64,000 nt of DNA from Olsenella sp. An290. GTDB lineage: Bacteria > Actinomycetota > Coriobacteriia > Coriobacteriales > Atopobiaceae. The DNA lies in contig NZ_NFIU01000001.1 in NCBI RefSeq assembly GCF_002159535.1, forward strand, positions 186,001 through 250,000. Direction: 5' to 3'. The position numbers were made by a program, and so were the translations under genes. This document shows positions 1,021-60,537 of the stretch, one piece after another (positions within the stretch are counted from its first letter, which is position 1; each line of letters begins with the position of its first letter). The notes under the pieces are model-generated. The model ran no database searches and was not told the origin of the DNA. It saw only the letters and a program-made list of their open reading frames with translations.

Positions 1021-2359
1021 GGTGCCCTCCCACCTGCCGGTTGCGCTCGCGCGCCGTTGCGCCGGGGCGCCAGCTGATACCCCGTACGAGGGCGTTTTTT
1101 CCAAAGCGCCGCTTGACCGCAATGGTTGCCTCGGCGAGGCGATGCTCGGCGGCCTCGGCCTCGGGGCTCGAGAAGAGGGTGAGCTCGGCGAGCTCCTCCG
1201 GCACGAGCCCGCCTACGGCAAGGTTGAGCCTCCTCACGCCGCGGTTGGGGTCCACGATCTCAGAGAAGAGGGAGAGGAAGGCGGCCGTGAGGGTCTCGCG
1301 CGAGTTGGTGGCCGCGCCGATGCCCCGGGAGGCGCTCGCCCCCTCGCCGTGGCGCCCGACGACGCGCGTTCCGTGCTCCCCCGTAAACGTTTCCGCCGGC
1401 ATCTCCGAGGAGCTCCGTTCCCCAAGCTCCTCCAGCGGCCCCCGCTCGCGCGCGTACCCCACAAAGAGCGAGACGTGGTTGCCGGCGAGCCCCTTCTCCA
1501 CGAGGTCGAGCGCGAGGGCGTCCACCATCTCGCGCAGGACCACCCGTGCCTCCTCGAACGCGTAGTCGCGCATGAGGACCTGCCCGGAGCACACCGAGCG
1601 CGCCTGCGGGCGGTACGCGTGAATCTCCGCCATCGTGCAGGGCTCGATGCCCCAGGCATGGTCTATGAGCAGCTCCGCATTGATGCCAAATTCCTCGTAG
1701 AGCGCCCGCTCGGGCAAGAGGGCCACCTCGCCCATGCACCGTGCTCCCATCGCCTCGAGCCGTCGCGCGATGCCGGGGCCGATCCCCCAGATGTCCGTGA
1801 TTGGCTGGTGCGGCCAGATCAGGCACTTGTAGCGCTCCTCGTCGAGCTCGCCAATGTTGTCTCGCGCGTGCTTGGCGGCGACGTCAAGCGCCACCTTTGC
1901 GAGGAAGAGGTTCGTGCCGACGCCCGCGGTGGCGCAGACGCCCGTCTCACGGCGCACCATCTCGATGAGCTCGACCGCAAGCTCGCGCGCGGTCTTTCCG
2001 TAGAGCGCGAGATAGGGCCCAACGTCGATGAAGACCTCGTCCACCGAGTAGACGTGGATGTCCTCGGGGGAGAAGTACCTGAGGTAGCTCGCGTAGATGC
2101 CGGCCGAGACCTCCATATAGCGACGCATGCGCGGCCGCGCCATCTCGTAGGTGATGCCGCGCGGAATCTCAAAGACGCGGCAGCGGTTGCGCACCCCCGC
2201 GGCCTTCATGGCAGGTGAGACGGCAAGGCAGATGGTCTTCTCGCCTCGTTTGGGGTCGGCCACCACGAGCCGGTGCTCGAAGGGGTCCTCCCCGCGGTCG
2301 ACGCACTCGACGGAGGCGTAGAAGCACTTGAGGTCGATGCAGAGATAGGAGCTCCCCAT
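1013..2359 (-). CDS. Y-family translesion DNA polymerase (UvrX/DinB/UmuC-like)
   Basis: A 448-residue error-prone polymerase that would copy past damaged bases. The palm shows CIDLKCFYASVE near residues 7-18 (metal-binding D9) and YSVDEVFIDV with D107/E108; the thumb has TAGVGTNLFLAKVA at 134-147 and a helix-hairpin-helix WGIGPGIARR at 181-190, followed by a little-finger domain. The start at 2359 is chosen because MGSSYLCIDL is the family N-terminus and a GGAAGGGA ribosome site precedes it; the open frame continues upstream only through non-coding hairpins. It overlaps the downstream YolD gene. A LexA-like box at 2450-2463 suggests SOS induction. Confidence 0.9.
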   Translation of the reverse strand: MGSSYLCIDLKCFYASVECVDRGEDPFEHRLVVADPKRGEKTICLAVSPAMKAAGVRNRCRVFEIPRGITYEMARPRMRRYMEVSAGIYASYLRYFSPEDIHVYSVDEVFIDVGPYLALYGKTARELAVELIEMVRRETGVCATAGVGTNLFLAKVALDVAAKHARDNIGELDEERYKCLIWPHQPITDIWGIGPGIARRLEAMGARCMGEVALLPERALYEEFGINAELLIDHAWGIEPCTMAEIHAYRPQARSVCSGQVLMRDYAFEEARVVLREMVDALALDLVEKGLAGNHVSLFVGYARERGPLEELGERSSSEMPAETFTGEHGTRVVGRHGEGASASRGIGAATNSRETLTAAFLSLFSEIVDPNRGVRRLNLAVGGLVPEELAELTLFSSPEAEAAEHRLAEATIAVKRRFGKNALVRGISWRPGATARERNRQVGGHHE

Positions 2360-58988: not shown

Positions 58989-59137
58989 AAACCCCGGCAA
59001 GACAGCAAGCGCCCGATTTCCTTTTGGAGCGCATCAAGCACAACAGCAATCAAAGACCACATCAGTAGCCCGCCGGGGTTTATCCATTGTGTAGTAGGCC
59101 TGCGTTACACAAACGCGGGCCTACTTTTTTTGTGTAA
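58989..59137 (+). promoter_or_regulatory. Riboswitch-like structured leader with attenuator
   Basis: A long-range perfect stem AAACCCCGGC (58989-58998) / GCCGGGGTTT (59072-59081) encloses about 70 nt including GCGC/GCGC pairing. It is followed by a terminator GTAGGCC.GCGTT / AACGC.GGCCTAC (59094-59124) and T7 (59125-59131), 18 bases before the start of the next gene. TTACACAA in the terminator loop (59105-59112) can pair with TTGTGTA (59087-59093) or TTGTGTAA next to the ribosome site (59130-59137). No known riboswitch class was recognised. The gap 58820-59148 holds no other feature. Confidence 0.5.
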
Positions 59138-59148
59138 GGAGGAAGAAC

Positions 59149-59875: not shown

Positions 59876-60503
59876 ATGAATAGAATCGTTACCATCAGCC
59901 GGGAGTTCGGGAGCGGAGGCCGCGAGGTCGGCCGGCGCCTGGCGGAGGCGATGGGGGTCGCGTACTACGACCAAGAGATCGTTGCCGCCCTCATGCGGCG
60001 CTCAAAGGTCGCCGAGGAATACGTCCGCTACATGGAGGAGCAGCGCCCGCTGCCGCTGCTTCCCATCACGACCGCGCGCACGTTTGGTCTGCCAACGAAC
60101 CGGGCCGTCACGGAGAACCTGAACTTCTACCTGCAGGAAAGCCGGGTCATACAGGAGGTCGCGGAGGCGTCCGACTGCGTGATCGTGGGGAGGTGCGCGG
60201 ACTACGTGCTGCGCGACCTGAGCCCGGTGCGTCTGTTCGTCTACGCGGACATGGAGCACAAGATCGCCCGCTGCCAGGAGAAGGGCGACGACGCGGAGGG
60301 GCTCACGGTTCCCGAGCTGCGCAGGAAGATCGTGTCCGTGGACAAGAGGCGCGCGGTACTACCAGTTCTACACCAGCCAGCTCCTGGGGAGGAAGGAGCA
60401 CTACGACCTGTGCGTCAACACGTCGCGCCACGCCCAGGTCAAGGACCTCATTCCCAGCCTGGCGGTGCTGGTCGAGCGGTATGCCGAGGGTGGCGGCTGC
60501 TAG
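59876..60503 (+). pseudogene. Cytidylate-kinase-like gene with a +1 frameshift
   Basis: The frame starts ITISREFGSGGREVGRRLAEAMGVAYYDQEIV, typical of the cytidylate kinase-like family (P-loop GSGGREVG). At about 60350-60356 an extra G in GCGCGCGGTAC shifts the frame; reading one base on restores YYQFYTSQLLGRKEHYDLCVNTSRHAQVK ... and a natural TAG at 60501-60503. Uncorrected, the frame runs to 60535 with unrelated sequence. It is either a recent mutation or an assembly error. It follows the exporter-like gene by 25 bases. Confidence 0.75.
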
Positions 60504-60537
60504 CGAATGGAGACAGCTCAAGCAGGTCTGCCTGAGG

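Follow-up and report, generated by a model that had tools for sequence, protein, structure and literature searches.

Upstream of an exporter gene in Olsenella sp. An290 lies a leader with the look of a transcriptional switch, and the question it raises is whether its RNA founds a new riboswitch class or belongs to one already known. The locus falls within a 64,000-nucleotide stretch of the genome (hereafter the window), for which a first-pass annotation had proposed a riboswitch-like transcription switch of an unmatched class ahead of a LysE-type exporter gene. Our analysis suggests that this leader belongs to the guanidine-IV family and acts as a transcriptional ON riboswitch whose expression platform has been rebuilt, a reading to which we assign a probability of roughly 0.78. 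The conserved structure, homology, and bistability of the leader are borne out by computation.

The conserved element occupies positions 59062-59131, ahead of the exporter gene, and the 181-nt leader folds more stably than shuffled sequences (z -3.2). The encoded protein is indeed a LysE-superfamily (Pfam SfLAP) membrane protein; its match to PF11139 (E 8e-8) falls just under the cutoff, which homologs at L012, L018, L020, and L021 exceed. The terminator annotated before the start codon was recovered by a terminator scan, with its end 17 rather than 18 bases from the ATG. The locus closest to the window is that of Olsenella uli An733. As a side observation, a Cytidylate_kin2-like gene accompanies the SfLAP exporter on its downstream side, a pairing conserved at L004, L007, L008, L010, and L016. 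In the window, the Cytidylate_kin2 gene 3′ of the exporter (59876-60535) is frameshifted, with a break near 60350 and homology resuming in another frame past residue 160, and the copy at L003 is intact; the frameshift reflects either a sequencing error or a pseudogene.

Table 1. Features of the Olsenella leader, in window coordinates, and of tandem leaders at other loci
Feature	Position	Strand	Basis or remark
P1 hairpin AGCCC[GCCG]GGGUU	59067..59080	+	4/5 pairs with two-sided changes, 19 relatives
P1 loop GCCG			Corresponds to guanidine-IV P1 loop (RCCG)
P2 aptamer/antiterminator hairpin UUGUGUAG[UAGGCCUGCG]UUACACAA	59087..59112	+	95% of cells paired, 19 relatives
P2 loop	59095-59104		Corresponds to guanidine-IV L2
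Putative loop-loop (kissing) pairing, GCC with GGC	59072-59074 with 59097-59099	+	Sequence complementarity
UUACACAA and its possible partners	59105-59112; upstream UUGUGUAG 59087-59094; downstream UUGUGUAA 59130-59137
Intrinsic terminator and U-tract	59094-59124 and 59125-59131	+	Terminator scan; mutually exclusive with P2
Shine-Dalgarno AAGGAGG	59136..59142	+	Sequence
SfLAP/LysE-superfamily membrane exporter gene, 233 aa	59149..59850	+	Pfam PF11139
Candidate extended -10 TGCTAGAAA	58983..58991	+	By eye; TGCTAGAAT in L003
10-bp long-range stem AAACCCCGGC/GCCGGGGTTT	58989-58998 and 59072-59081	+	Competes with P1; lineage-specific
Tandem leaders	L005 (999-1280), L008, L009, L010, L012, L014, L028, L069, L072

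Exporter relatives were taken from 28 other loci, mostly in Clostridia, and 14 leaders, the window's included, contain a common block of ~72 bases, here called type 1. A covariance model of this block (R1) located type 1 in 3 of the 246 Coriobacteriia genomes searched (two Olsenella, one of them the window's, and a more distant genome) and further copies in several Clostridia; weak R1 matches at L070 and L075-L077, which lay inside unrelated sequence or were without the loops, were taken as chance. A search of 291 genomes for the exact pattern CACCGG..CCGTAGGTCTTAGTGG, which proved too strict, returned nothing, and neither type 1 nor the exporter was found in plasmids, phages, or viral contigs. 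Type 1 stands upstream of two unrelated exporters, SfLAP and MATE, the latter at L069, L072, L073, and L074 (Pfam confirms the MATE assignment at L072 and L073). The 19 distinct sequences on which the alignment statistics rest share a P1 hairpin, with the loop GCCG in the window and in 18 of the 19, a P2 hairpin with the loop UAGGCCNGCG, and a GCC/GGC loop-loop complementarity (18 of 19).

Comparison of sequences indicates that the aptamer is most likely of the guanidine-IV (GGAM-1/mepA) kind, through which guanidine switches on an efflux pump, and no new class, because a second covariance model (R2), built from ordinary guanidine-IV-like leaders with no type-1 sequence in its training, finds both the window and other type-1 elements. 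Specifically, the sole R2 match in the 64 kb is at 59063-59137 (27.8 bits, E 2.8e-5, these E-values being rough), and 13 type-1 elements are matched at E<=0.01. With R2, the window element reaches 28 bits, below the 37-88 bits of ordinary elements; these R1 in turn either detects poorly or misses. The R2 training elements were initially chosen for motif resemblance to type 1, a concern mostly answered by later independent matches, since these precede known guanidine-IV genes. R2 also detects elements preceding SugE in a second family of the order to which the window's genome belongs; we take this family to be Eggerthellaceae, the home of Raoultibacter timonensis. An element from R. timonensis binds guanidine (PMC7736828). 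In one Clostridia family, R2 matches 44 of 150 genomes, with MATE, SugE, PnuC, a PNPOx-like gene, and SfLAP as targets, a list that includes the SugE/MATE/PnuC transporter set of Lenkeit 2020.

The loops themselves carry the same signature. Ordinary elements consist of a hairpin followed by a terminator, with loops ACCG/UAGGUCUUAG or GCCG/UAGGCC, and occur in other exporter leaders. In the 46 examined, which precede SugE, MATE, PnuC, and other genes, the P1 loop is invariably RCCG, and the L2 sequence A-G-G-Y-C, with a G five bases past the Y, is invariant in these 46 as it is in the 19 type-1 sequences. The loop bases of ordinary elements fall, with equal spacing, on the positions published as essential in L. 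lactis (G62, G66, U67, and G72; PMC7736828) and C. botulinum (A29, C30, G71, U72, and G77; PMC11611296). In the latter, the loop pairs A29-U72 and C30-G71 were probed, and an A29G/U72C double mutant regains the kissing loop (PMC11611296). The window has this G29-C72 state in C. botulinum numbering. Speaking against the assignment, the L. lactis work found U72 to be 97% conserved (PMC7736828), but the G-C state that places a C there is the commonest first loop-loop pair among the natural ordinary elements, in which this pair covaries (G-C 31, A-U 14, and G-U 1 of 46). Type 1 thus shares with guanidine-IV the P1 loop RCCG, the L2 motif UAGGYC...G, loop-loop pairing, terminator control, and exporter targets. 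This homology removes the annotated status of a new, unmatched class. In Rfam 15, no family exceeded the gathering threshold for the window leader and relaxed thresholds gave nothing credible, and many clear guanidine-IV-type loci (L004-L028) were likewise unmatched at gathering scores, which suggests that Rfam 15 has no effective guanidine-IV model; hence the leader looked unmatched. A candidate decayed guanidine-IV element upstream in the window was rejected, its similarity not exceeding that of shuffles and no second R2 match being present, and stricter R2 filters yielded no second element in the genome.

Type 1 also occurs beside ordinary elements. Nine leaders carry an ordinary guanidine-IV element with type 1 following it in tandem (Table 1), a PNPOx remnant being visible in that of L005, and at L016, L019, L073, and L074 an ordinary element, a PNPOx-like gene, type 1, and the exporter follow in that order. 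At L062 (G107, ~1400-2300, minus strand), in a Coriobacteriia genome, the exporter is missing behind an otherwise complete set of ordinary element, PNPOx-like gene, and type 1, the start codon abutting antisense MFS-gene sequence in what appears to be an insertion/deletion scar. At L084-L098, from another family within the order of the window's genome, guanidine-IV-type elements precede a gene family whose products start M(K)QFVTEESFWELFP; we know of no earlier description of this family as a guanidine target.

The tandem arrangement bears on the alternative that survives best, namely that type 1 keeps the fold and the switch and has a natural ligand other than guanidine, as a Gd4v-like specificity variant for a related cation or amine. 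Gd4v, as set out in the text of PMC9788692, is a guanidine-IV scaffold with a changed ligand, is gut-enriched, and also precedes MATE genes; its two hairpins, pseudoknot, and terminator have counterparts in type 1, which likewise occurs in gut bacteria. In addition, the L2 of type 1 is distinctive (NGCG), and the tandem placement of type 1 with ordinary elements makes a second signal conceivable. According to the same text, however, G is never found at position D1 of transaminase-linked Gd4v RNAs, all of which carry one more hairpin. Type 1 has G at positions 62, 66, and 72 in 17, 19, and 19 of the 19 sequences, any of which, placing D1 from that text, could be D1, and the window has G at all of them. 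No extra hairpin is present in L2; in the predicted folds, the short 3′ arm of P2 makes up the terminator loop. Since G occupies every candidate D1 and the D2 hairpin is absent, type 1 sides with guanidine-IV over Gd4v as so described, and it also has target genes in common with guanidine-IV. We therefore regard a changed ligand as unlikely. The further idea that leaders with both elements are two-input gates, responding to guanidine and, through a type 1 of changed ligand, to a second related gut compound, is more doubtful and is offered as speculation.

The preferred reading, a guanidine-IV-type aptamer controlling termination, is also supported by the pattern of conservation in type 1. The first-pass annotation had named covariation in homologous leaders as a check, and two-sided changes occur in 4/5 P1 pairs and in 3 terminator pairs (n = 19), above slid controls. 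P2 is nearly invariant and shows little covariation, which therefore neither supports nor refutes this hairpin; its support comes from kept complementarity, matched by <=0.3% of shuffles in 16 of the 19 sequences, and from the siting of its 3′ arm within the loop of the terminator, a place with no other obvious reason for sequence conservation. The other three (L014, L018, and L019) have a mismatch beside the P2 loop, where the shuffle test stops. Ribosome-mediated (leader peptide) attenuation or protein-mediated antitermination in place of a metabolite aptamer would fit the terminator/antiterminator design, which is typical of attenuation, and a Thr-leader family gave a weak Rfam match (E 0.27, far below the gathering score); but the type-1 block has compensatory hairpin changes, linkers of variable length, and no conserved reading frame, and shares homology with an aptamer established by experiment, making such control very improbable. 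A plain terminator of an upstream transcript with chance complementarity is scarcely credible, for although a strong terminator alone accounts for the hairpin, the P1, L2, and terminator-loop sequences are conserved across two phyla and the P2 complementarity is rare in shuffles.

The novelty lies in the expression platform: P2 stands apart as an antiterminator, and a competing terminator captures its strands. The P2 stem UUGUGUAG/UUACACAA holds L2, whereas the terminator arises by pairing of L2 itself with a second strand, ACGCNGGCCUA. The P2 loop strand is therefore also a terminator strand, and the conserved L2 bases serve twice, as binding loop and in the terminator, with the essential G72 kept as the last G of NGCG. 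In known guanidine-IV riboswitches, by contrast, the aptamer loop L2 caps the terminator stem. Because P2 and the terminator share strands and are mutually exclusive, with P2 not forming the top of the terminator stem, type 1 has a variant architecture; we found no report of a separate P2 in the open-licence literature. Mutually exclusive antiterminators and terminators are also the hallmark of classical terminator/antiterminator riboswitches, but their aptamers are unrelated to type 1 and the resemblance is one of convergent mechanism, not membership.

Predicted folds substantiate the annotated switch around UUACACAA. In these predictions, all 19 sequences form P1 and P2 if the RNA ends before the terminator 3′ arm and the terminator if it is complete, L018 then losing P1 as well. 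The window behaves likewise, with predicted end states of -28.8 kcal/mol for the terminator and -11.8 for P1 plus P2, a gap of 17 kcal/mol. Its P2 is predicted to be favored to ~59116 if the RNA starts near 59060 or has the long-range arm, only partly (0.3-0.45) with a start at 58999, and to be lost by 59118-59120. The annotated ability of UUACACAA to pair with either flank is present in the window, the downstream copy being confined to Olsenella. During transcription, P1 (loop GCCG) would form first and then P2 (loop UAGGCCUGCG). We infer that guanidine or a close analogue binds and locks the two loops together; the locked P2 would keep UUACACAA and the loop strand, blocking the terminator and allowing read-through into the exporter gene. 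Without ligand, the emerging ACGCGGGCCUAC would invade P2, the terminator would form, and transcription would stop.

The long-range stem that the annotation had taken as the enclosing core fares differently. Its 10 bp are perfect in the window, and 10 bp were reached for AAACCCCGGC/GCCGGGGUUU in 2/300 shuffles, but the stem is not conserved: it is lineage-specific, falling to 7 bp in the other Olsenella and 4-6 bp in relatives from other genera, near chance level outside Olsenella genomes. It is thus probably not the aptamer; the key features, the P1 hairpin and the complementarity of its loop to the terminator/antiterminator loop, had been missed. If transcribed, the stem is predicted to abolish P1, and it may lie outside the transcript. 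A consensus promoter scan gave no sigma-70 site, and the candidate extended -10, judged from its sequence, would possibly start the RNA at ~58998, just past the 5′ arm. The stem is either absent from the RNA or a local brake.

Tandem guanidine-IV-type elements are seen here, whereas a survey of tandem riboswitches listed guanidine-IV among the classes not found in tandem (PMC9481103). Known guanidine-IV targets are SugE, MATE, and PnuC (Lenkeit 2020), in contrast to the SfLAP exporter of the window. We found no SfLAP target of guanidine-IV in the open-licence literature, and this SfLAP/LysE-superfamily protein, from a family for which no prior link to guanidine was found, joins the candidate guanidine exporters; the candidate is useful because the window's Olsenella genome has no SugE-family match. 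Moreover, one aptamer appears on two expression platforms, embedded in the terminator or acting through a separate antiterminator, and type 1 is thus a natural comparison for how guanidine-IV, with an aptamer contained in the terminator itself, activates genes.
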